From assembly GCF_009827535.1 (NCBI RefSeq), contig NZ_WTYN01000001.1:868001-932000 (forward strand): a stretch of DNA of 64,000 nt, written 5' to 3'. Source of the DNA: Qipengyuania oceanensis (lineage in GTDB: Bacteria; Pseudomonadota; Alphaproteobacteria; Sphingomonadales; Sphingomonadaceae). Below, piece by piece: positions 51,925-64,000 of the stretch. The position numbers were made by a program, and so were the translations under genes. The first letter of the stretch is position 1; each line of letters begins with the position of its first letter. A model generated the notes under the pieces. That model searched no databases. It was not told the DNA's origin and saw nothing but the letters and a program-made list of their open reading frames with translations.

Positions 51925-54477
51925 CTAGAACTTGACGCCCAGTTCCACGCCGTAGAGCTGGCGAGCACCCGGCGAAATGAACGACCCGCCGAATTCGATC
52001 GCGGGGATCGCTTCGGAGATATAGTCTTCCCCCAGGATGTTCTCGCCGAAAGCGAAGATGCTGAAATTGCCGAATTCCAAGCCGGCGCGCACGTTGAGTA
52101 TCCCGAAGGCGTCGCGCCGTGCGACATCGTAGCGGGCATTGCCGAAATCGGCCGGCAGGAAGTTGACCGCCGAAATGGGAATCAGGCCGGAAAAGATCGT
52201 CGGACGCTCCTGGTCCTGGACCGAGTGGAACCAGGTCGGGCCGGTTATACGGTAGTCGGCACGCACGATCAGGTCGGTGCTGTCGTTGACCGGCGTATCG
52301 ATCTCCGTCCCCAGGTTGATCGTGTAGTCGGCAGTGTAGGGCGACTTGTTGCCGACCGTGTAGGGCCGCGAAGAGTTCTCCTTGATCTCGCTGTCGGTGA
52401 CGTTGAACGCGCCGTAGAACTTCCAGCCCTCGACCACTTCGGCAGACAGGTTGAATTCTGCGCCCATCACCTCGACCTTGTCGATGTTCGAGACCACGCG
52501 CAGCAGGCCGTAGCTGCCGACGAAGAACTCGAAGAACTGCATGTCGTCGATCGTGGTGTAGTAGCCGGCCAGGTCGAAGGTGATCCTGCCATTGGCGAAC
52601 TGGCCCTTCACGCCCGCTTCGAAGGCGCTGGACACTTCCTTGTCGTACTGGTCCTCGACCGTGACGTTGGCGTTGATCGTGCCCGGGGTTACGCCGTCGT
52701 TGAAGTTCGCATCGATCAGCGCTTGCGAGCCTTGGTTGTTGAAGCCGCCCGATTTGAAGCCGATGCCCCAGTTGGCATAGACGTTGATATCGGGCGTCGG
52801 CTCCCAGCTGAGGCTTACCTTGGGCTGGAGCTGCTTGAACTTGGCCGATTGCGGGCTGAGCGCGCCGAAAGCCTGACCGGGATTGATCGGACCCCCAGTG
52901 AAGGGATCGGTCGCGGTCGGCACGAGCGAGCGCGATTTGCGATCCTCGATGTCGTAGCGCAGCGCCAGCCCCGCGGTGACCGTCCCGAAATCATATTCGA
53001 CATTGCCGAAGGCCGCATAAACGTCGGTCTTGAAAGCGTCCGCGAGAACGAGCGAAGACGGGTTGGCGGAATCGGGCGGGTTGTAGATCCCCTCGATCAC
53101 CCCGGCCCCGGTATCCGCGCCGAGCGTGACGGCCGTCTCGCGGTCGATGTTGAGATAATAGGCACCGACCTGCCAGCTGAGCGGACCGCCGTCGTTCGAC
53201 GCCAGCCGGACCTCGCCGCTGATATCGGTCTGGTTGCGCATCTGGTACTGCGTACCGTCGCAGGTCGTCGGGCTATAGGGCCCGAAGGTCGACCCCGTCG
53301 CCGGCGCGAACAGGAACGGCACCGGAATCTGGCCGATGAAGCCGGGCTGGTTGACCGGGAAGCCGGTGAGATCCGCAGTGGACGCGAAGCAGGCGTTGAC
53401 CGCTGCCAGGCCCGATGGATCGGCTGCGCCGATGTAGCGTGCGAAGTCCGCGGAAGTCCCGTCCGCAACCAGGCTCTGGTCCACGTCCGAATAGAGCGCC
53501 CACGCCGTCAGCATGGTGCTCCCGAAATCATGCTCGACCTTGGCCGAAACGTCGAAGCTGTCCTGGTCGTTCGACGGGTCGATGTTACCGTAATACCGGA
53601 ACTCGTGCTTGTTCACGTCTTCGTAGAAGGCGGGGTTGAAGGCCGCGAACTGGGGCAGGTGAAACGATGCGTTGAAGTTGATCGAGGAACCGCGCAACTG
53701 CGAATAGCGCGCCTTCACGTCCAGCTCGGTCGCAGGACCCAGATCGGCGACCACGCGGCCATCGACGGTCCAGATTTCCTGGTTGTCGACGTTGTTCTTG
53801 TCGAGGAAGATATTGCGGTAGAAACCGTCGGTCGTCCGGTAATAGCCGGACAGCACGAAGCCCAGGTTCTCCCCGATCGGCCCCGCGACATGGCCGGTCG
53901 CCTCGATCGTGTCGTGGTTGGCGTAGGACAGTTTCGCGCCGCCTTCGAAATAGTCGCCGGGCTTGAGCGTCGACAGCACGATAGCGCCGGCGGCCGCGTT
54001 GCGGCCGTAGAGCGCGCCTTGCGGCCCCTTCAGAATCTCGACCTGGCGCAGCGTGCCCTGCGTCTGGTTGAGCTGCGCGGTATTGGTCTTGAGAATGCCG
54101 TCGACCACGAGCGCGATCGAGCTCTCGGCATCGCGCGCGCCGTTGATGCCGCGAATGTTGACCTGCGTGTCGCCTGCTTCGGCCGTACCGGTAACGATCG
54201 TGACGCCGGGAGTCAGCTGGACGAAATCCTCCGCGTTGTCGGCACCGGTCTTCGCCAGCGCATCGGCAGTCAGGACCGAGACGGATGCCGGGACATCCTG
54301 CAAGCGCTCGTTCTGCCGGCGTGCGGTGACGATGATGACGTCGCCGTCCTGCTCGGCACTTGCCACCGCGACTTCCGCGTCCTGGGCGATTGCCGGAGAA
54401 GCGAAAGCCACCGCACTCGCGGCCACACCCAAACCAAGAGCCGTCTTGAGGCCGCGCCCCGTCATGAACCTATCCAT
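51925..54477 (-). CDS. TonB-dependent outer-membrane receptor
   Basis: An 850-residue TonB-dependent receptor with a signal peptide (residues 1-32, ending AIAQ), a TonB box (DVIIVTARRQ), a plug domain (VPASVSVLTADALAKTGADN; IRGINGARDAESSIALVVDG; QVEILKGPQGALYGRNAAAG) and a 22-strand barrel ending in LYGVELGVKF. These receptors import large or scarce substrates across the outer membrane with energy from TonB. It is divergent from a GntR-type regulator and the hydantoinase-type operon, with overlapping promoters and a shared operator, so it probably imports the operon's substrate. Confidence 0.94.
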   Translation of the reverse strand: MDRFMTGRGLKTALGLGVAASAVAFASPAIAQDAEVAVASAEQDGDVIIVTARRQNERLQDVPASVSVLTADALAKTGADNAEDFVQLTPGVTIVTGTAEAGDTQVNIRGINGARDAESSIALVVDGILKTNTAQLNQTQGTLRQVEILKGPQGALYGRNAAAGAIVLSTLKPGDYFEGGAKLSYANHDTIEATGHVAGPIGENLGFVLSGYYRTTDGFYRNIFLDKNNVDNQEIWTVDGRVVADLGPATELDVKARYSQLRGSSINFNASFHLPQFAAFNPAFYEDVNKHEFRYYGNIDPSNDQDSFDVSAKVEHDFGSTMLTAWALYSDVDQSLVADGTSADFARYIGAADPSGLAAVNACFASTADLTGFPVNQPGFIGQIPVPFLFAPATGSTFGPYSPTTCDGTQYQMRNQTDISGEVRLASNDGGPLSWQVGAYYLNIDRETAVTLGADTGAGVIEGIYNPPDSANPSSLVLADAFKTDVYAAFGNVEYDFGTVTAGLALRYDIEDRKSRSLVPTATDPFTGGPINPGQAFGALSPQSAKFKQLQPKVSLSWEPTPDINVYANWGIGFKSGGFNNQGSQALIDANFNDGVTPGTINANVTVEDQYDKEVSSAFEAGVKGQFANGRITFDLAGYYTTIDDMQFFEFFVGSYGLLRVVSNIDKVEVMGAEFNLSAEVVEGWKFYGAFNVTDSEIKENSSRPYTVGNKSPYTADYTINLGTEIDTPVNDSTDLIVRADYRITGPTWFHSVQDQERPTIFSGLIPISAVNFLPADFGNARYDVARRDAFGILNVRAGLEFGNFSIFAFGENILGEDYISEAIPAIEFGGSFISPGARQLYGVELGVKF

Positions 54478-54586
54478 CGTCAGTTCTCCCCGAACCGTGA
54501 GTTACCAGCGCCTTGCGGTGTCGGCCGAAGTACCGACCCCGAGAAACCACCTTCGGCGCCCTCCATCTCCAACCGCTTCCTGCGGC

Positions 54587-54624
54587 TTGACGAGCGTGTA
54601 TTGTATACAATATGACATCGTCAA
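54587..54624. promoter_or_regulatory. Symmetric operator/divergent promoter of the receptor and GntR operon
   Basis: A 38-bp interrupted inverted repeat: TTGACGA (54587-54593), central perfect palindrome ATTGTATACAAT (54600-54611), TCGTCAA (54618-54624), all symmetric about 54605.5. The outer arms read as -35 boxes (TTGACG) on each strand, and the central palindrome lies between each -35 and its likely -10 (TATGAC at 54611-54616 for the plus strand; TACACG at 54600-54595 for the minus strand). The core fits the TNGT...ACNA type of FCD-subfamily GntR operators. Confidence 0.75.
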
Positions 54625-54648
54625 GATTGTTATTGCGGGACGCATATC

Positions 54649-55326
54649 TTGGCCAAGGCTTCCGACAAGGCGTATTCGGCGATCAGGGCGATGATCCTGT
54701 CGGGCGAACTCGTGCCCGGTCAGCAATTGTCGGAAGAAGCGCTTGCCGAACAGTGCGACGTTTCGCGCACGCCGGTGCGCGACGCGCTGCGCCGGCTGGA
54801 GGCCGATCTGCTGATAAGGCGCAGCGAATCCCAGCGCAGCTTCGTGGCCGACTGGTCGATCGACGACGTCGAGGATTCCTTCGAATTGCGCGCCATGCTC
54901 GAAGGGCTCGCCGCCCGGCGTGCGGCAGACCGGATGACGCGGGAAATTCTCGATCGTTTACGGGCGTGCAACGCGCGAATCGGCGCAGCCGTACGCGGCA
55001 AGTCGCCCGACATTACCGCCTTCCTCGAAGCCAATCTGACGTTCCACGAGATCATTCTCGAAACCTCGGGATCGAGGCGGCTGACGAGCCTGCTCGGGGC
55101 GCTGATCGAACAGCCGGTTGTCTGGCGCACCGCGCAGCATTACGGCCCCGATGCCTTCCACAAATCCCACAGCGAGCACGAGGATTTGCTCGCCGCTTTC
55201 GCGCGACGCGACGGCGAATGGGCACAGGCGATCATGGCCGGCCATATCCGCCGCGCTTTCCACGCCTATGCCGATGCGCACAGCGGCCTGGCGTCAATCG
55301 ATCGCAAGACGGCTCGGCAGGCATAA
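54649..55326 (+). CDS. GntR-family transcriptional regulator (FCD subfamily)
   Basis: A 225-residue regulator: N-terminal winged helix-turn-helix (PGQQLSEEALAEQCDVSRTPVRDALRRLEADLLI, given here as SEEALAEQCDVSRTPVRDAL) and a C-terminal all-helical FCD ligand-binding domain with metal-binding histidines (LTFHEIILETSG, KSHSEHEDLL, MAGHIRRAF). The start is a TTG, nine bases after GGGA; no in-frame ATG is closer. It is the first gene of the catabolic operon and probably represses both itself and the divergent receptor through the palindrome at 54600-54611. The ligand is presumably the pathway's substrate or an intermediate. Confidence 0.9.
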   Translation: MAKASDKAYSAIRAMILSGELVPGQQLSEEALAEQCDVSRTPVRDALRRLEADLLIRRSESQRSFVADWSIDDVEDSFELRAMLEGLAARRAADRMTREILDRLRACNARIGAAVRGKSPDITAFLEANLTFHEIILETSGSRRLTSLLGALIEQPVVWRTAQHYGPDAFHKSHSEHEDLLAAFARRDGEWAQAIMAGHIRRAFHAYADAHSGLASIDRKTARQA

Positions 55327-56261
55327 TGTATACAGAACGCATCGAAATGGTCGAAGTCAGCCCGCGCGACGGGTTGCAGAACGAGAAGCGCGAGGTCGCA
55401 ACCGCCGACAAGGTTGCGCTGATCGAGCGCGCGATCGCTGCTGGCGCGCGCCGCATCGAGGTGACCAGCTTCGTCAACCCGCGCGCGGTCCCGCAAATGG
55501 CGGATGCCGACGCCGTGTGCGCAAGCCTGCCGGAGCGCGAAGACGTCACCTACATCGGCCTCGTCATGAACCGTCGCGGGGCCGACCGCGCCATCGCGAC
55601 GGGCCGGATAGACCAGCTGGGCGCGGTCTGCGTCGCGACCGACCGTTTCGCCATGGCTAACCAGGGTCAGACGAGCGACCAGTCGGTCGAGGTGGCGAGC
55701 GACATCATCGCCCTCGCCCGCGATAACGGCCTCACCGGCCAGGCGACCATCGCTGCCAGCTTCGGCTGCCCCTTCGAAGGCGAGGTCGCGGAAGACCGGG
55801 TCGTTGCCATGGCGCGCCGGCTTGCCGAGGCGGAGCCGGTCGAGATCGCGCTTGCCGATACCATCGGCGTCGGCAATCCGGCCCAGGTCGCCCGCCTCAT
55901 TGCGAAGGTGCGCGAAGCGATCGGCGCGATCCCGGTCCGGGTCCATTTCCACAACACCCGCGGAACCGGCCTCGCCAATGTCTGGGCCGCGATCGGCGCG
56001 GGCGCGCGGAGCGTCGATGCATCGATCGGCGGGCTCGGCGGGTGCCCCTTCGCCCCCGGAGCGGCCGGAAACGTCGCGACCGAGGACGTCGCCTACATGC
56101 TCGAGCGGGCCGGGATCGACACCGGCCTCGACCTCGCCGCGCTGATCGAGACGAACCGCTGGCTCGCCGGCGTGATGGACAAGGAGTTGCCGGCGATGGT
56201 CGGCAAGGCGGGCGGTTTTCCCGCCCCGAAAAAAGAGACACCGGAAAGGACTACCGCCTGA
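55326..56261 (+). CDS. HMG-CoA lyase-family enzyme
   Basis: A 311-residue TIM-barrel lyase of the hydroxymethylglutaryl-CoA lyase family. The active site SPRDGLQNE (residues 12-20, with R14 and D15), FGCPFEG, the metal histidines VHFHNTRGTGLAN and the signature loop GGLGGCPFAPGAAGN containing C240 are all present. It would cleave HMG-CoA or a related 3-hydroxyacyl-CoA to acetyl-CoA plus a keto acid. The ATG overlaps the GntR stop (TAATG), and the palindrome TGTATACA lies over the start codon. The operon context (hydantoinase and CoA transferase) suggests a substrate other than leucine-derived HMG-CoA. Confidence 0.9.
   Translation: MYTERIEMVEVSPRDGLQNEKREVATADKVALIERAIAAGARRIEVTSFVNPRAVPQMADADAVCASLPEREDVTYIGLVMNRRGADRAIATGRIDQLGAVCVATDRFAMANQGQTSDQSVEVASDIIALARDNGLTGQATIAASFGCPFEGEVAEDRVVAMARRLAEAEPVEIALADTIGVGNPAQVARLIAKVREAIGAIPVRVHFHNTRGTGLANVWAAIGAGARSVDASIGGLGGCPFAPGAAGNVATEDVAYMLERAGIDTGLDLAALIETNRWLAGVMDKELPAMVGKAGGFPAPKKETPERTTA
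55327..55334. promoter_or_regulatory. Second copy of the TGTATACA operator core
   Basis: The eight-base palindrome TGTATACA, identical to the centre of the main operator at 54602-54609, overlaps the start codon of the HMG-CoA-lyase gene (ATG at 55326). It could be an auxiliary or roadblock site for the GntR-type regulator, or a coincidence. Confidence 0.4.
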
Positions 56262-58309
56262 TGCGATACCGGCTTGGAGTGGACGTCGGAGGGACGTTCA
56301 CCGACCTCCTCCTGTTCGACAACGACAGCGGCCAGTTCTGGCGGCACAAGACACCTTCCACTCCCCATGACAGCTCGGAAGGCATTCTCAACGGGGTCCA
56401 GGCGATCACCGCGGACGCAGGCGTCGATCCGGCAGATATCGAGTTCTTCCTCCACGGCACGACCGTCGCCACCAATGCCGTGCTCGAGGGCAAGGGGGCG
56501 CGCGTCGGTCTGATCGTAACCGAAGGCTATCGCGACGTGATGCAGATCGCGCGCAGCTTCGTGCCCGGCGGGCTTGCCGCGTGGATCGTCTGGCCCAAGC
56601 CGCAACCGCTCGCCGCGCTGGAAGACACGATCGACGTGCCCGGCCGGATGGGCGCGGACGGAAAGGAAGTCCGCCCGCTCGACGAGGAAGCGGTGCGGAA
56701 GGCGATCCGCAAGCTCAAGGACCAGGGTATCGAAGCGCTGACGGTCAGCCTGATGAACGCCTACGTCAACGGCGCGCACGAGCAGCGGATCGGGGAAATC
56801 GCGGCAGAGGAACTGGGCGACCTGCCCGTGTCGCTCAGCCATGAAGTGCTGCCCGAAATGCAGGAATACGAACGCACGCTCTCGACCGTGGCCAATGCCG
56901 CGGTGCGGCCCGTAGTCGGCAAGTACATCTCCAACCTGCGCTCCAAGCTCGCCGATGCGGGCGTGACCGGCAAGCTCTCGCTGCTGCGTTCCGACGGTGG
57001 CCTGATGAGCAGCCAGAAGGCCGAGGAGCACCCGGTCAACATCCTCATGTCCGGGCCGGCCGGCGGGGTGACGGGCGCGCTGTGGGTCGCCAGGAACGCA
57101 GGCTTCAAGAATATCCTGACGCTCGACGTCGGCGGCACGTCGACCGACGTCGCCCTGATCGAGAACCTCGAACCGCGGCGCGTCCGCACGACCGATGTCG
57201 GCCACCTCTCGGTCCGTGCGTCCTCGCTCGACGTCAAGACGGTCGGCGCAGGTGGCGGCTCGATCGCCCACGTGCCCGAACTGACCAGGGCGCTGCGCGT
57301 CGGGCCGGAAAGCGCGGGCGCGGTCCCCGGGCCCGTCGCCTACGGCAAGGGCGGCGAGCAACCGACTGTGACCGACGCGAACGTCGTGCTCGGCTACCTG
57401 CCGGAAAACCTGCTCGGCGGATCCTTCAAGCTCGACCGCGAGGGCGCCAAGAAGTCCGTCCAGACCATCGCCGACGCGCTCGACATCGGGCTGATGGAGG
57501 CCGCACGCGGCATCATCGACATCGTCAACGAAAACATGTTCGGTGCCCTGCGGATGATCTCCGTCCAGCAGGGTTACGACCCGCGCGACTTCGCTCTGAT
57601 GGGCTTCGGGGGCGCAGGTCCGCTGCACGTGAACGCCGTGGCCCGCCTGATGGGCAGCTGGCCCGCGATCAGCCCCGTCTCGCCCGGCGTGCTGTGCGCG
57701 CTGGGCGATGCGACGACCCGGATGCGAACCGAGACCGCGCGCAGTTTCAGCCGCCTCGCCAGGGACACCGACGTTTCCGAGCTCGTCGAACTGCTGGACG
57801 AGATGGCCGCGCAGACCCGTGCCGAACTGGAGGCCGACGGCATTCCCGCCGATACCATCCGCAGCGAGTTCGAGGTCGACGTGCGCTATGCCGGGCAGGC
57901 TTTCGAAGTGCCGCTCACGATCGATCAGGCGACCCTGCGCGACAAGGGGATCGACGGCATTCTCGCCCGGTTCGACGAGGAGCATCGGCGCCTGTTCACC
58001 TTCAACATGGATACGCCACACGAGATCGTGAACCTGCGCGCCGTGGCGCTGGGCGAGGCGCTCGAAATCGATGCCGCCGAGCTGGACAAGGGCGACGGCA
58101 ATCCCGACGGCGCAAAGCTGCGCGACCACACGTTGTGGATGGGCGGGAAGCAGCGCGAAGCGGCGATCTACGACCGCTCCAGGCTGCGGCAGGGCGACAC
58201 GATCCCGGGCCCCGCCATCATTACCGAAATGGACTCGACCACGCTGGTCGAGACGGATTGCGTCGCGACCATCGACGCCGTCGGCAACATCCTGATCAAC
58301 CCGGCCTGA
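56261..58309 (+). CDS. Hydantoinase/oxoprolinase family subunit A
   Basis: A 682-residue HyuA-type subunit. The N-terminus has the ASKHA nucleotide-binding motif VDVGGTFTDLLLFD (residues 7-20), then the Hydant_A core with LLRSDGGLMSSQ, NILMSGPAGGVTGALW, LDVGGTSTDVALI and VGAGGGSIAHV, and ends in a conserved C-terminal domain. The family includes ATP-dependent N-methylhydantoinase, 5-oxoprolinase and acetone/acetophenone carboxylases. It needs the B subunit encoded 13 bp downstream. The ATG overlaps the previous stop by one base. Confidence 0.93.
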   Translation: MRYRLGVDVGGTFTDLLLFDNDSGQFWRHKTPSTPHDSSEGILNGVQAITADAGVDPADIEFFLHGTTVATNAVLEGKGARVGLIVTEGYRDVMQIARSFVPGGLAAWIVWPKPQPLAALEDTIDVPGRMGADGKEVRPLDEEAVRKAIRKLKDQGIEALTVSLMNAYVNGAHEQRIGEIAAEELGDLPVSLSHEVLPEMQEYERTLSTVANAAVRPVVGKYISNLRSKLADAGVTGKLSLLRSDGGLMSSQKAEEHPVNILMSGPAGGVTGALWVARNAGFKNILTLDVGGTSTDVALIENLEPRRVRTTDVGHLSVRASSLDVKTVGAGGGSIAHVPELTRALRVGPESAGAVPGPVAYGKGGEQPTVTDANVVLGYLPENLLGGSFKLDREGAKKSVQTIADALDIGLMEAARGIIDIVNENMFGALRMISVQQGYDPRDFALMGFGGAGPLHVNAVARLMGSWPAISPVSPGVLCALGDATTRMRTETARSFSRLARDTDVSELVELLDEMAAQTRAELEADGIPADTIRSEFEVDVRYAGQAFEVPLTIDQATLRDKGIDGILARFDEEHRRLFTFNMDTPHEIVNLRAVALGEALEIDAAELDKGDGNPDGAKLRDHTLWMGGKQREAAIYDRSRLRQGDTIPGPAIITEMDSTTLVETDCVATIDAVGNILINPA

Positions 58310-58322
58310 GGAGGCGCGAGAC

Positions 58323-60221
58323 ATGCCCGCTCAAATCGTCGAAACCAACGACACCCCCTTCCAGCGGCTCGATATCGATCCGGTCACGCTCGACATCATC
58401 GAGAATGCGCTGCGCAATGCACGCATCGAGATGGACGCGACGCTCGTACGCACCGCCATGTCGCCCGGCATCCGCGAACAGGGCGACAGCTTTCCGTTGA
58501 TCGCGGACCCGGCCGGCAAGATGATCGTCGGGCAATTCGGCAGCTTCATCGATGGCTTCCTCAGGGGCTTCGACGGCACGCTGGAAGACGGCGACATGAT
58601 CTTCCTGTCCGATCCCTATTCCTGCGAGGGCGCGATCAGCCATTCCAACGACTGGCTGGTGCTGCTGCCGGTATTCAAGGACGGGCGGCTGATCGCTTAC
58701 ACCGCGATGTTCGGCCACCAGTCCGATATCGGCGGCTCGGTCCCGGGATCGATGCCGATCCGCGCCAAGTCGATCTTCGAGGAAGGCGTGCGCATCCCGC
58801 CGGTGAAGATCTGGAAGAAGGGCGAGTACAACGAGGACCTGATGAAGCTCGTCATGCACCAGACGCGCAAGCCCGACTGGTGCCAAGCCGATCTCGACGC
58901 CCTGATCGCCAGCTGCCGGGTCGCCGCCAACCGGGTGGTCGAGATGGCCGAGCGATTCGGCGACGACGTCTACTATTCCGCGACGCAGGAGCTCCTGGCC
59001 CGCAATTACCGCGCCATGAAGGCACTGATCGGCCAGGCGGTTGCCGAGGAACCAGTCAGTTTCGAGGATTACATCTGCGACGACGGCATGGGCTACGGCC
59101 CGTACAAGATCAGGTGCACCATGCGGCGCGAAGGCGACAAGGTGGTGCTCGATTTCGAGGGCACCGATCCGCAAAGCGTCGCCTCGATCAATTTCTATCT
59201 CAATGAGAACATGTTCAAGATGTTCTTCGGCATCTACATGATCATGGTCTTCGACCCTCAGATCCTTTTCAACGACGGGTTCTACGACCTGATCGAGGTA
59301 CGCATCCCGGAAGGATCGCTCCTCAAGCCCAAGTTCCCGGCAGCCCTGTCGGGTCGCACCCACGCCCTCGGGCGTATCTTCGACATCCTCGGCGGATTGC
59401 TGGGCCAGAAGACGCCCGAATTCCTCAATGCCGCGGGTTTCAGCTCCTCGCCGCACCTGTTCTATTCCGGGTGGGACAACCGTCCGGGGCACGAGGGTAA
59501 CTGGTTCCAGCTGTTCCAGATCGGCTTCGGCGGGATACCCGGCAGGCCGCTGGGCGACGGACCGGACGGCCATTCGCTTTGGCCCGGCTTCACCAATGTC
59601 CCCAACGAGTTCCTTGAACGGTACTTCCCCTTGCGGATCGAGCGTTACGAGACCGAGCCGGACAGTGGCGGCGCGGGCCTGCATCGCGGCGGCAACGGCA
59701 TCCACATGACCTACCGGTTCCTCGCCGATGGCGCGATCGCCATCCATGACGACCGCTGGTTCGTGCCGCCCTGGGGCGTCAACGGCGGCCATCCTGGCGA
59801 GCGCGCGACCAAGATCCTCGAGCGCGTCGACGGCACGAAGGAGATCGTCGGCAACAAGGTCGAAGAGGTCGAGGTCAAGGCAGGCGAGCAGCTCCATTTC
59901 ATCACCTGGGGTGGCGGTGGCTGGGGCGACCCGCTCGACCGCGACCCCGAACTCGTCGCGCTGGAAGTGCGGCAGGGTCTGGTGACGGTCGACGGCGCGC
60001 GCGATTACGGCGTCGTCATCACCGATGAACACTCGGTCGACAGCGAGGCTACCGCCAAGCTGCGCGAGGAGATGAAGGCCGGTCGCGGCGAATTGCCCCT
60101 GTTCGATTACGGCCCGTCCATCGACGAGCTTCGCGCCGCCTGCGAGGCCGAGACCGGTCTGCCCGCGCCCGTACAGCCCGTCTGGCACGACCAGCCCGAT
60201 TACGCGGAGGCAGCAGAGTGA
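58323..60221 (+). CDS. Hydantoinase/oxoprolinase family subunit B
   Basis: A 632-residue HyuB-type subunit, the catalytic partner of HyuA-like proteins (LDIIENALRNARIEMDATLV; FVPPWGVNGGHPGER; ITWGGGGWGDPLDRDPELV). With HyuA it forms an ATP-dependent amidohydrolase or a ketone carboxylase. GAGGAGGCG lies before the ATG. The stop overlaps the CoA transferase GTG start by 4 bp (GTGA). The gamma subunit of acetone carboxylase is not seen, so an acetophenone-carboxylase-like or hydantoinase-like enzyme fits better than acetone carboxylase. Confidence 0.92.
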   Translation: MPAQIVETNDTPFQRLDIDPVTLDIIENALRNARIEMDATLVRTAMSPGIREQGDSFPLIADPAGKMIVGQFGSFIDGFLRGFDGTLEDGDMIFLSDPYSCEGAISHSNDWLVLLPVFKDGRLIAYTAMFGHQSDIGGSVPGSMPIRAKSIFEEGVRIPPVKIWKKGEYNEDLMKLVMHQTRKPDWCQADLDALIASCRVAANRVVEMAERFGDDVYYSATQELLARNYRAMKALIGQAVAEEPVSFEDYICDDGMGYGPYKIRCTMRREGDKVVLDFEGTDPQSVASINFYLNENMFKMFFGIYMIMVFDPQILFNDGFYDLIEVRIPEGSLLKPKFPAALSGRTHALGRIFDILGGLLGQKTPEFLNAAGFSSSPHLFYSGWDNRPGHEGNWFQLFQIGFGGIPGRPLGDGPDGHSLWPGFTNVPNEFLERYFPLRIERYETEPDSGGAGLHRGGNGIHMTYRFLADGAIAIHDDRWFVPPWGVNGGHPGERATKILERVDGTKEIVGNKVEEVEVKAGEQLHFITWGGGGWGDPLDRDPELVALEVRQGLVTVDGARDYGVVITDEHSVDSEATAKLREEMKAGRGELPLFDYGPSIDELRAACEAETGLPAPVQPVWHDQPDYAEAAE

Positions 60222-61414
60222 GCACTCCTGCGCCCGGAGCGCTCAGCGACATCCGAGTGATAGAAATGGGCCAGCTGCTCGCCGGCCCGTTCTGCGGGCA
60301 ATTGCTCGGCGACATGGGTGCCGACGTCATCAAGCTCGAGCCGCCCGGCGCCGGCGACCCCATGCGGCTATGGGGCCAGGGCGAGGAAAAGGTGCAATGG
60401 GAGGTGATCGCGCGCAACAAGCGCTCGGTGACCTGCAACCTGCGGATCCCGGAAGGCCAGCAATTGGCCCGCGAACTGATCGCCAAAGCCGATGTGCTGG
60501 TCGAGAACTTCAAACCCGGCACGCTCGAGAAATGGGGCCTCGGCCCCGACGTTCTGCTGGCCGACAACCCCGGCCTCATCATCGCGCGCATGTCCGGTTA
60601 CGGCCAGGACGGCCCCTACTCCGACCGGGCAGGCTTCGGCGGCATCGGCGAGGCGATGGGCGGCTGGCGCTACATCGTCGGCGACCCGGACCGGCCCCCT
60701 GCGCGCATGGGCATCTCGATCGGCGATACGCTGTGCGCGACCTACGGCACGATGGGCGTGCTGGCCGCGCTGCATCATCGGGAGAAGACCGGCGAAGGCC
60801 AGGTGATCGATACCGCGCTCTACGAGGCGGTGCTGCAAGTGATGGAGGGGCTGGTCCCCGAATACGATCACAACGGCTTCATCCGCGAACGATCGGGCTC
60901 GATCCTGCCGGGCATCGCCCCCTCCAACGTCTACACCTGCAAGGACGGCCCCTTCATGATCGGGGCCAACAAGGATGCGATCTTCGCCCGGCTCGCCCGA
61001 GCCATGGGGCGCCCGGAACTGGCCGAAGACCCGCGCTACGCGACGCACCTTGCCCGCGGGAGACACCAGACCGAGCTGGATGATCTCATCAACGCCTGGA
61101 CGTCGACGCTCACCATCGACGAGGTCGATGATTTGATGATCGAGTATTCGATTCCCGCCGGGCGCGTCTATACGGCGAAGGACATGCTCGCCGACCCGCA
61201 CTTCAAGGCGCGCGAGGCAATCATCGACGTCGAGACCGAAACGCACGGCACGTTAAAGATGCAGAACGCCTTCCCCAAGTTCTCGAAAAGCCCTTCCGGC
61301 GTTCGCCGCCCCGCCCCTTCGGAGCCCGGCCAGCACAATGCCGAGGTGCTTTCCGAACTGCTCGGCTACGACGAGGCGAGGCGCGAGGAACTCGCCGCCG
61401 CCGGCGCGCTGTGA
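60218..61414 (+). CDS. CaiB/BaiF-type family III CoA transferase
   Basis: A 398-residue family III CoA transferase. The N-terminus IRVIEMGQLLAGPFCGQLLGDMGADVIKLEPP and the catalytic Asp D198 in VIDTALYEAVLQVMEG (aspartyl-CoA intermediate) define the family; the paired GDMGADVIK and YGQDGPYSDRAGF motifs are intact. It moves CoA from an acyl-CoA to a carboxylate, activating a pathway acid. It starts at a GTG overlapping the HyuB-like stop codon and is followed after 9 bp by the isochorismatase-family gene. The acid it activates may be the product of the hydantoinase/carboxylase step. Confidence 0.92.
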   Translation: MSTPAPGALSDIRVIEMGQLLAGPFCGQLLGDMGADVIKLEPPGAGDPMRLWGQGEEKVQWEVIARNKRSVTCNLRIPEGQQLARELIAKADVLVENFKPGTLEKWGLGPDVLLADNPGLIIARMSGYGQDGPYSDRAGFGGIGEAMGGWRYIVGDPDRPPARMGISIGDTLCATYGTMGVLAALHHREKTGEGQVIDTALYEAVLQVMEGLVPEYDHNGFIRERSGSILPGIAPSNVYTCKDGPFMIGANKDAIFARLARAMGRPELAEDPRYATHLARGRHQTELDDLINAWTSTLTIDEVDDLMIEYSIPAGRVYTAKDMLADPHFKAREAIIDVETETHGTLKMQNAFPKFSKSPSGVRRPAPSEPGQHNAEVLSELLGYDEARREELAAAGAL

Positions 61415-61423
61415 AGGCCTGAC

Positions 61424-62053
61424 GTGGGTTCGGGCGGCCAGACCTTCGAGGAAAGCTACGCAGGCGTCTACGACGGCAGGCTGGAGCCTGGTGACAAGGC
61501 TGCATTGCTGGTCGTCGACCTGGTCGTTGCCTATTCGGACGAAAGCTCGCCCCTCTACTGCGAGACGGCAGGGGCCGCGATCGAGGTAAACCGCCGCCTG
61601 ATCGCCGCGGCGCGCAAGGCCGGTGTGCCTGTCGTCTTCACCAATGTCGCCTATGGTCCCGGCGACAAGGCGGGCAACGTCTTCTACCGCAAGGCCCCGG
61701 TGCTGCGGGTGTTCGACGACGGTTCGCCGCTCGGAGCATTTCCCGACGGCATCGATGCGCCTCCCGGCGATACGATCACCAAGCAATATCCGTCCGCCTT
61801 CTTCGGGACCGGACTTGCCGACCGGCTGCGCGCAAATGGCGTGGACACGCTGCTCATCACGGGCTTCTCGACCTCGGGCTGCGTGCGCGCCTCTGCCCTC
61901 GATGCGCTGCAGGAAGGCTTCATCCCCTTCGTTGTGCGCGACGCATGCGCCGATCGCCACCCCGAGCCGCACGAGGCGAACCTGCGCGACCTCCAGGCGA
62001 AATATGCCGAGGTGATCGACAGCGACGCTGCGCTCGCCATCCTCGCGCGGTAG
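61424..62053 (+). CDS. Isochorismatase-family amidase (N-carbamoylsarcosine amidohydrolase-like)
   Basis: A 209-residue cysteine hydrolase. The conserved Asp is in AALLVVDLVVAYSD, the nucleophile C153 is in GFSTSGCVRASALDALQEGF, and FFGTGLADRL precedes the LLITGFSTSGC strand; these match N-carbamoylsarcosine/N-carbamoyl amino-acid hydrolases rather than true isochorismatases. It starts at GTG, 9 bp after the CoA transferase. Pairing with HyuA/HyuB makes hydrolysis of an N-carbamoyl or other amide product plausible. It is the last plus-strand gene of the operon and converges with the monooxygenase gene. Confidence 0.88.
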   Translation: MGSGGQTFEESYAGVYDGRLEPGDKAALLVVDLVVAYSDESSPLYCETAGAAIEVNRRLIAAARKAGVPVVFTNVAYGPGDKAGNVFYRKAPVLRVFDDGSPLGAFPDGIDAPPGDTITKQYPSAFFGTGLADRLRANGVDTLLITGFSTSGCVRASALDALQEGFIPFVVRDACADRHPEPHEANLRDLQAKYAEVIDSDAALAILAR

Positions 62054-62104: not shown

Positions 62105-63907
62105 CTAGCTGAACTCCAGCCCCTCGAACGTGCCCGCTTTGCGCCACTGGTCGATGTGCGTGAAGAATCCCTGCGCGCCTGCCGGATGACCCATGGCGAA
62201 GCGTTCCTGCTCTCCGTATCCCTGGCCCTCGTTGTTGTAATAGCCGGGCGTACACTCGGTGCTGCCGAGCCGCGCTCCGGGGCCCGTCAGCAGGAAATCG
62301 ATCCAGGCCTGCTCCGCTTCGGCACTCGGCTCTACGCTCGCATGGCCCTCGCCTTCCGCATGCTTGACAATGCAGGCGACCGTGTCGGCATGGTCGACGA
62401 GGTTGTGCGGATAGTTGGCGATGAAGGCCGCCGCCTGGTTCTGCTGCACGACGAACATGTTCGGAAACCCGTGAACGTGCAGGCCGTGCAGGCTGCGCAT
62501 GCCCCCCGCCCAATAGTCCGACAGCTTCTGGCCGTCGCGACCCGTCACGTCGAAGCCGGCGCGATCGTGGAAGTCGGTCCCGACCTCGAAACCGGAAGCA
62601 TAGACGATGCAATCGACCTCGTACTCCTCGCCGTTTGCGATCACGCCTTTTTCGGTGATCCGTTCGACCCCCTTGCCGTCGGTATCGACGAGATGGGTGT
62701 TCGGGCGCGTGAAGGCCTGCAGATACTCGTCGTGGAAGCACGGGCGCTTGCACAGCTGGCGGTACCAGGCCTTGAGCTTCTCGCCCGCTTCGCCGCCGAC
62801 GATCGCCTCGGCACGGGCGCGGATTTCGCTCATCTTCTGGTTATCGGCGTCCTCGAACGCGGCCATGATCCCTTCGGGCGTGCGCTGCTCCGGCGGCATG
62901 TCGATGACCTGTGCCCGGATGCGCTTGCCCAGATCGGTCCAGCCGTCGTCGACCAGGTCTTCGGCCGGGAAGCCGACACCGAGATTGGCGACGAAATTCT
63001 CCTGCCATTTCTTCTGCCAGCCGGGTCCGGTCACCTCGTCGAACCAGTCGCGCTCGAGCGGCTTGTTGTTGCGCTCGTCGACACTCGAGGGCGTGCGCTG
63101 GAACACGTAGAGTTCCTTTGCATCGCGCGAGACGTTCGGCACGACCTGCACGGCCGTCGCACCCGTACCGATGATCGCCACGCGCTTGTCGGCAAGGCCG
63201 GTCATCGGATCGCCTTCGGGCGTACCGCCGGTATACTCGTAGTCCCAGCGGCTGGTGTGAAAGCTCTTGCCCCGGAACTCGTCGATACCGGGCAGGCCCG
63301 GCAGCTTGGCGACATGGAGAGGTCCGGTGCCCATGCCGACGTATTTGGCGGTGAATTCGTCGCCACGGTCGGTGCGAACGATCCAGACAGAGCGCCCTGC
63401 ATCCCATTCCAGATCGGTCACCTGCGTGTGGAACAGGGCGTTGTCATAAAGGTCGAAGGTCTCGCCGATCCGACTGCAATGGTCGCGGATTTCCGGGGCA
63501 TGAGCGTATTTCTCGCTCGGCATGTGCCCGGTTTCCTCGAGCAGCGGCATGTAGATCATGGATGCGGTATCGCATTGGGCGCCGGGATAGCGGTTCCAGT
63601 ACCAGGTGCCGCCGAAGTCGCCGCCCTTCTCGATGATGCGCACGTCGTTGATGCCCGCATCCTTTAGCCGCGCTCCGACGACCAGCCCGGCAAACCCGCC
63701 GCCGATGAAGGCGAAGGTGACATGATCGGTGCGCGGGGCACGCTCCTTGCGAGGCGTGTAGGGATCGACTGCGAGGTCGGAATACTCGCGCTCCAGGCGC
63801 ACATATTGCGCCGAGCCGTCTGTACGAAGGCGCTTGTCGCGCTCCTCGGCATACTTGCGGCGCAAGGCCTCCTTGTCGACGGGTGCTGCCAGCGCTTCGC
63901 TCGCCAT
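62105..63907 (-). CDS. Baeyer-Villiger-type flavin monooxygenase
   Basis: A 600-residue NAD(P)H- and FAD-dependent monooxygenase. FAD Rossmann motif FAFIGGGFAGLVVGARL (about residues 50-66), the type I Baeyer-Villiger fingerprint FRGKSFHTSRWDY (FxGxxxHxxxW type), and the NADPH Rossmann motif VAIIGTGATAVQVVP are present. Type I enzymes of about 600 residues (phenylacetone or steroid monooxygenase-like) insert oxygen next to a ketone. The start is the ATG at 63907, after AGGAGGAGAGG; the frame extends 25 residues further upstream. It converges with the hydantoinase-type operon and may act on the same substrate. Confidence 0.9.
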   Translation of the reverse strand: MASEALAAPVDKEALRRKYAEERDKRLRTDGSAQYVRLEREYSDLAVDPYTPRKERAPRTDHVTFAFIGGGFAGLVVGARLKDAGINDVRIIEKGGDFGGTWYWNRYPGAQCDTASMIYMPLLEETGHMPSEKYAHAPEIRDHCSRIGETFDLYDNALFHTQVTDLEWDAGRSVWIVRTDRGDEFTAKYVGMGTGPLHVAKLPGLPGIDEFRGKSFHTSRWDYEYTGGTPEGDPMTGLADKRVAIIGTGATAVQVVPNVSRDAKELYVFQRTPSSVDERNNKPLERDWFDEVTGPGWQKKWQENFVANLGVGFPAEDLVDDGWTDLGKRIRAQVIDMPPEQRTPEGIMAAFEDADNQKMSEIRARAEAIVGGEAGEKLKAWYRQLCKRPCFHDEYLQAFTRPNTHLVDTDGKGVERITEKGVIANGEEYEVDCIVYASGFEVGTDFHDRAGFDVTGRDGQKLSDYWAGGMRSLHGLHVHGFPNMFVVQQNQAAAFIANYPHNLVDHADTVACIVKHAEGEGHASVEPSAEAEQAWIDFLLTGPGARLGSTECTPGYYNNEGQGYGEQERFAMGHPAGAQGFFTHIDQWRKAGTFEGLEFS

Positions 63908-64000
63908 TGTCCTCTCCTCCTGTGGTCCCGGTCCGAACCCGATTCGAACTTCGGGTTCGGTTTCGCAAAGAGACTGACCCATCTCGTCAGGAGAGGCAAG
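63908..64000 (-). promoter_or_regulatory. Upstream region of the monooxygenase gene (partial)
   Basis: Only 93 bp of sequence precedes the monooxygenase start before the window ends. It contains the ribosome-binding site AGGAGGAGAGG. No TGTATACA-type palindrome is visible in it, so control by the GntR-type regulator cannot be supported from this window. Confidence 0.4.

Follow-up and report, generated by a model that had tools for sequence, protein, structure and literature searches.

A predicted operator shared by a TonB receptor gene and a GntR-headed catabolic operon in Qipengyuania oceanensis and other sphingomonads

What is the role of a mirror-symmetric element in the gap between a TonB-dependent receptor gene and a divergent catabolic operon headed by a GntR-type regulator? 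In the window, i.e. the whole 64,000-nucleotide stretch of the Qipengyuania oceanensis genome analysed here, TTGACGA (54587-54593), the palindrome ATTGTATACAAT (54600-54611) and TCGTCAA (54618-54624) share one common centre at 54605.5, as read from the window sequence and exactly as originally predicted. The original prediction saw in this arrangement an operator of the adjacent regulator between two face-to-face promoters, with the outer arms serving as -35 boxes and the palindrome lying between -35 and -10 in both directions. It took the symmetry for an economical design for the joint repression of uptake and catabolism.

Comparison with relatives leads us to a reading that we hold with a probability of roughly 0.82. 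The core palindrome, hereafter O1, would serve as operator for the FCD-type GntR regulator of the gene at 54649, which would repress both operons from it, the arms would be -35 boxes, and a weaker site, O2, would lie on the start of the gene for a hydroxymethylglutaryl-CoA-lyase-like enzyme (HMGL). This provides a precise predicted operator for a widespread sphingomonad uptake-and-catabolism cluster. It also offers a natural series of loci that differ in promoter layout and, along with it, in how many operators they have and where, with one site doubling as a start codon, so that roadblocking by a repressor becomes directly testable.

The receptor gene (51925-54477, minus strand; Pfam plug and barrel) has a divergent homologue in 107 of the 139 loci compared. 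On the plus strand, the regulator gene gntR (54649-55326), the predicted source of the O1 binder, begins with a TTG start whose position agrees with that in its homologues. It is followed by HMGL (55326-56261; NCBIfam PRK05692, 304 bits against a cut-off of 246, with a query started at 55299, 5' of the ATG) and by four genes assigned with Pfam: a hydantoinase A/oxoprolinase-like subunit (hydA, 56261-58309; start position checked, query started at 56303), a hydantoinase B-like subunit (hydB, 58323-60221), a class III (CaiB-type) CoA transferase (60218-61414) and an isochorismatase-type hydrolase (61424-62053). gntR and HMGL overlap via TAATG, HMGL and hydA via TGATG. The best NCBIfam match of the CoA transferase was succinate-glutarate CoA-transferase, with a score under the cut-off of that family. 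The enzyme set from 55326 to 62053, together with its own TonB receptor, is conserved in many sphingomonads. A monooxygenase-like gene further downstream (62105-63982) was ruled out as a cluster member, its homologue being found in one of 40 wide loci and with a weak score. A literature search on this combination of genes returned no description giving the substrate of the cluster.

Conservation and recurrence of the core palindrome

Palindromy by itself was dropped as evidence of function, because the window (64% GC) holds 20 perfect 12-bp palindromes against about 25 expected. O1 stands out by its surroundings and by its sequence. None of the other 19 is flanked by perfect 7-bp outer arms at a symmetric gap of 0-12; such arms are expected about 0.0014 times per palindrome. 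The arms are symmetric to 8 bp (54586-54593 and 54618-54625), and the 6-bp spacers between arms and core are without symmetry. With up to two mismatches, ATTGTATACAAT occurs once in the window (0.18 expected), and with up to one mismatch O1 is its single occurrence in the whole 2.87 Mb genome. Within the gap, O1 lies closer to the regulator gene than to the middle.

GntR homologues were collected with their surrounding DNA from 148 genomes, then from 397 (overlapping sets), and from a named collection, whose 17 loci are mostly from Novosphingobium and whose best match to the regulator was from Novosphingobium marinum (75% identity). This gave 139 loci after two exact duplicates were dropped, some of them still close kin; three places (G174, G157, G378) and 15 homologue places with E 6.3e-43 or weaker are outside this count. 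Of the 139 loci, 107 have the core with at most one mismatch in the 300 bp upstream of gntR, and 77 have it exactly, as ATTGTATACAAW. It was present in 102 of the 107 loci with a divergent TonB receptor versus five of the 32 without one (Fisher 7e-19, a value inflated by the relatedness of the loci by descent). Thus, one site between two divergent operons, the trait of a divergon, is kept in 102 of the 107 divergent loci. Among the 32 loci lacking the core within 300 bp, 27 also lack the divergent receptor.

The same association appears at the level of whole genomes, with the regulator called present at E of at most 1e-20. The exact ATTGTATACAAW, at any place in the genome, was found in 32 of the 49 genomes that have the regulator versus eight of the 99 in which none was detected (p 5e-13; 148 genomes, related by descent), and the reversed-pattern control in 15 of 49 versus 16 of 99 (p 0.05). 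The association is strong in the family of the window (13/23 versus 1/66) and weaker in other families (19/26 versus 7/33). One genome counted as positive (G030) carries its exact match away from the regulator locus.

How the motif recurs within the pathway was followed in 40 wide loci (L031-L070); hydA lies downstream of gntR and co-directional with it in 30, is missing from the stretch compared in eight and lies elsewhere in two. Where a CoA transferase or isochorismatase gene is divergent from HMGL/hydA, the motif (at most one mismatch) lies in or beside the gap in 21 of 21 loci, and in 15 of these it is doubled. It also lies in the co-directional gap between gntR and HMGL/hydA in three of three loci, so that enzyme genes with their own upstream gap carry it in 24 of 24. 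At the same threshold it was found in one of the six loci, among the 30, in which gntR and HMGL abut or overlap. The number of operators thus tracks the promoter layout, and of all findings this speaks most strongly for the motif as the operator of this regulon. Together with the linkage of the core to a divergent TonB receptor, this recurrence makes the local GntR protein the very likely binder of O1. The original prediction of an operator common to the receptor and the catabolic operon is thereby upheld, as far as sequence comparison can carry it. One-mismatch copies of the motif also exist at a few other places, some of them within coding sequence. The paired operators are spaced 23 bp start to start in 14 loci (L041, L050, L052, L055-L059, L061, L062, L064, L066, L067, L069) and 13 bp in L068; the 23-bp pairs before HMGL/hydA suggest side-by-side dimers or a tetramer.

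The regulator and its known relatives

The regulator combines the two domains of the FCD subfamily, an N-terminal GntR winged helix-turn-helix (PF00392, E 5.8e-18, residues 5-66) and a C-terminal FCD ligand domain (PF07729, E 7.5e-27, residues 76-201). In this FCD (FadR) subfamily, the metal site consists of an acidic residue and three histidines. His133, His177 and His199 are invariant here (107/107), and Asn129, likewise in 107 of 107, replaces the usual Asp of the putative metal site. In the turn of the helix-turn-helix, Asp37 of the Q. oceanensis regulator replaces a Gly found in 104 of 107 homologues, a difference that might affect how this protein binds DNA. Atu1419 of Agrobacterium fabrum (6z74) was the second-best PDB sequence match (phmmer E 2.9e-17). 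The residues aligned with its Glu34, Ser44, Arg45, Thr46 and Arg49 are invariant in all 107 operator-bearing homologues. Apart from the Glu, they are just as invariant in the 23 loci that lack the operator, and recognition-helix residues were therefore rejected as proof of specificity.

The site itself, ATTGTATACAAT, fits the FCD-type operator signature (N)yGT(N)xAC(N)y, published for GntR regulators (PMC4494728, PMC7797058). The half-site rule first proposed, TNGT-N-ACNA, has its spacing corrected here to TTGT-AT-ACAA, in line with that signature. The closest structural parallel is Atu1419, an FCD-type GntR crystallised with its operator ATGTATACAT (PDB 6ZA3/6ZAB), a copy of which is found in the promoter of its own gene, between -35 and -10 (PMC7797058). 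Both proteins belong to the same family, the five aligned DNA-contact residues are kept, and both sites have the GTATAC core (PMC7797058). They differ in that O1 is ATTGTATACAAT and not the 10-bp ATGTATACAT, and in that the DNA contact Arg31 aligns with Gln26 in the Q. oceanensis regulator. Atu1419 controls hydroxycinnamate degradation, and its tetramer and effector are established (PMC7797058).

Divergons of the FadR subfamily with a single shared site are well described (Suvorova et al. 2015, PMC4494728), and one intergenic palindrome for a regulator-headed and a divergent operon is what we find as well. Unlike in those cases, O1 is nearer to the regulator gene than to mid-gap, has predicted -35 boxes on both sides and is joined by another, candidate site at a start codon. 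AlkR of Pseudomonas aeruginosa (FCD/VanR group, ATTGTCAGACAAT) similarly places ATTGT...ACAAT half-sites over promoter elements, yet its site is 13 bp long with a 3-bp spacer, its target is an alkane monooxygenase and its effector a fatty acyl-CoA (PMC12042122). Literature searches found ATTGTATACAAT in no paper, nor TTGTATACAA in combination with GntR, and among the matches listed for TTGTATACAA alone none looked related. Among the matches listed for FCD, TonB and sphingomonad operators, face-to-face divergent promoters, start-codon or intragenic operators and the gene cluster, the regulon was undescribed. The regulon is apparently new to the literature; the divergon with a shared site is a type already known, and O2 is the unusual detail.

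Predicted promoters and the origin of the mirror symmetry

The right arm TCGTCAA (54618-54624; TTGACGA on the minus strand) is the predicted -35 box of the leftward receptor promoter. Its predicted -10, TACACG (54595-54600, minus strand), follows after an 18-bp spacer and is weak, only the leading TA being conserved. For the rightward promoter of the gntR operon, the promoter scan and the comparison of loci point to the left arm TTGACGA (54587-54593, plus strand) as -35 and to TATGAC (54611-54616, plus strand) as -10, again with an 18-bp spacer and a weak -10 element. In the 140 bp scanned (54541-54680), TTGACG-18-TATGAC was the top forward pair (9/12), and TTGACG-18-TACACG (8/12) was level with six other reverse-strand pairs. 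Because of this tie, the promoter claim rests on comparative evidence.

That evidence shows a -35 conserved on one side. GTCAA lies 6-10 bp to the right of the core in 87 of the 107 core-bearing loci, at exactly 8 bp in 77 of them, and at the other 22 of the 27 offsets scanned on this side it was found in none of the 107. Of the 107 loci, 103 have a T directly left of the core, at the place of the A in the leftward -10 TA. On the left, 38 of the 45 core-bearing loci with a GntR identity of at least 59% have a -35 (TTGA/TTGC) at 18 bp from the core, as does one of the 62 more distant ones. In the relatives with this spacing, the predicted rightward -10, TACAAA or TACAAT, falls within the palindrome.

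Alignment with seven relatives from the named collection indicates that about 5 bp are missing between the left -35 and the core in the Q. oceanensis genome. This loss would have shifted the left arm to the mirror position and the rightward -10 to TATGAC. TTGAC and GTCAA stand at equal distances from the core in one of the 107 core-bearing loci, namely the window itself. The best explanation of the exact mirror symmetry is therefore a lineage-specific deletion of roughly 5 bp, and the conserved feature, judged across the loci, is the core rather than the outer symmetry.

Several parts of the original prediction change with these results. The idea of a symmetric, economical design was rejected, as the symmetry is lost in the intergenic regions of relatives that keep the gene order. 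The arms do appear to be -35 boxes, the right one conserved and the left one displaced in close relatives, where it usually lies 18 bp from the core. A palindrome between -35 and -10 holds for the leftward promoter; for the rightward one it does not hold in close relatives, in most of which the -10 would be inside the palindrome. The face-to-face promoters survive in a weaker form, as two predicted promoters overlapping the same operator.

In the mechanism that we propose, a GntR dimer on O1 would cover elements of two promoters, that of the TonB receptor gene and that of the gntR-HMGL-hydA-hydB-CoA transferase-isochorismatase operon, with the outer arms acting as -35 boxes outside the operator. 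Uptake and catabolism would both stay repressed until the FCD domain binds a pathway metabolite and the repressor comes off the DNA. At O2, the same repressor would probably block polymerase leaving gntR or pair with O1, 726 bp away, and thus tighten the control of the enzyme genes.

The arms could also be read as extra half-sites of the repressor, for a second dimer or a tetramer, which would make the symmetry part of the operator. Weaker boxes do occur 7-12 nt from the site in some FadR-subfamily operators (PMC4494728), and for a single palindrome the 7-bp arm symmetry exceeds chance. We nevertheless disfavour this reading as improbable. TTGAC/GTCAA is unlike the TTGTA half-site, and since it flanks only three of the 40 secondary operators, the right arm does not seem to be part of the operator itself. 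Moreover, equal-distance arms are missing in 106 of 107 loci, and only one side of the core has a conserved adjacent T, the pattern that a -10 element would need.

Two further readings keep the operator and change its user or its effect. Activation from O1 in place of repression is hardly probable either: the sign of regulation is not readable from sequence, but with O1 between the predicted leftward -35 and -10 and overlapping the rightward promoter, occlusion of polymerase would be expected. The palindrome might also belong to another regulator, with the adjacent GntR a mere bystander; this we regard as improbable too. The pairing of GntR and palindrome is a sequence-based one, and both the 32 loci without the core and the eight genomes that have the exact motif and no detected homologue would suit such a regulator. 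Against it, the motif tracks the GntR-TonB-hydantoinase cluster and recurs chiefly in the intergenic gaps of that cluster, and the site agrees with the GntR signature and is similar to the operator of Atu1419 (PMC7797058). Repression of both operons by the neighbouring GntR remains our preferred account of O1.

A possible second site on the HMGL start codon

The second candidate site, O2 (ATGTATACAG, 55326-55335, no strand assigned), includes the start codon of HMGL and overlaps, in the TAATG junction, the stop codon of gntR. It differs from TTGTATACAA at two of ten positions in Q. oceanensis and matches the Atu1419 operator ATGTATACAT at nine of ten. In 60 loci, HMGL directly follows gntR, and 42 of these junctions have an operator-like 10-mer that opens with a start codon (ATGTATACAG in 18, ATGTATACAA in 17, others in seven). 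In 16 of the remaining 18, an operator with at most one mismatch lies 37-89 nt before the EVxPRD landmark of the enzyme; the last two, L083 and L084, lack one.

For a codon test, every in-frame start in the 60 junction loci was considered, chosen regardless of the motif. A start followed by Tyr was found in 42 of 60 loci, and the Tyr codon was TAT in all 42. The next residue was Thr in 40, always encoded by ACA (40/40), and Ser (TCA) in two. In the HMGL gene bodies, TAT makes up 17 of 37 Tyr codons and ACA 25 of 247 Thr codons (about 10%), and codons 4-6 vary freely. The true start is uncertain in 12 of the 42 start-codon sites, where a further in-frame ATG follows, four or more codons ahead of EVxPRD; the other 30, without a later ATG, gave TAT in 29 of 29 and ACA in 28 of 28. 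HMGL genes in other arrangements were available from 38 loci, nine more having been dropped as they lack the EVxPRD landmark. Here the motif (at most one mismatch) lies within 150 bp upstream of the landmark in 36 of 38, and ATG followed by Tyr was found in none of the 38, though in 17 an in-frame TTG lies inside the operator itself. With TAT and ACA fixed, codons 4-6 varying and ATG-Tyr absent elsewhere, the constraint is most simply one on the DNA.

We give even odds to the proposal that, in Novosphingobium-like genera, a second operator is held in the first three HMGL codons (ATG TAT ACA) by selection on synonymous sites, where, as a roadblock to elongation or an anchor for a loop, it would allow gntR to be transcribed with the enzyme genes shut. 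When bound, the lac repressor is able to halt elongation or to loop the DNA (PMC3711431, PMC5477534), and the lac system likewise has more than one operator; for Q. oceanensis, looping and roadblocking are what we infer from the layout. The parallel is a functional one. The lac repressor belongs to a protein family unrelated to the GntR regulators.

Conservation of ATGTATACA at the HMGL start could also serve translation initiation or a Met-Tyr-Thr N-terminus in place of an operator. In its favour, A/T-rich starts help translation initiation, no promoter element is conserved around the site, and the Q. oceanensis site has two mismatches in ten positions. We consider this explanation unlikely, although clearly less so than the rival readings of O1. 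Selection on translation or on the peptide would hardly account for invariant TAT and ACA next to freely varying codons, or for the operators just upstream in 16 of the other 18 junctions. The residues also appear dispensable, given that none of the 38 HMGL genes in other arrangements has the ATG-Tyr start, although 17 of them do have the in-frame TTG in the operator.

How a repressor at O2 would act can be narrowed down further. An internal promoter at this place was disfavoured, as no -35 is conserved around the 42 start-codon sites, TTGA/TTGC being found in at most four of 42 at any position. A roadblock, or a loop partner for O1, seems for this reason likelier there. In the 16 upstream-operator loci, TTGA/TTGC starts 5 bp before the 12-mer in ten, and these loci may have an internal promoter. 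At gntR-HMGL junctions, TTGATT stands directly 5' of the TTGTATACAA or TTGTATCCAA site in L080, L087, L088, L093, L094, L110, L113 and L114. Across the full set of 16 upstream-operator loci, conservation is also strong for a G at +14 and an A at +17. In L083 and L084, which are related to each other, O1 is kept with one mismatch and the junction is without an O2-like site, which provides a natural control for the role of O2.
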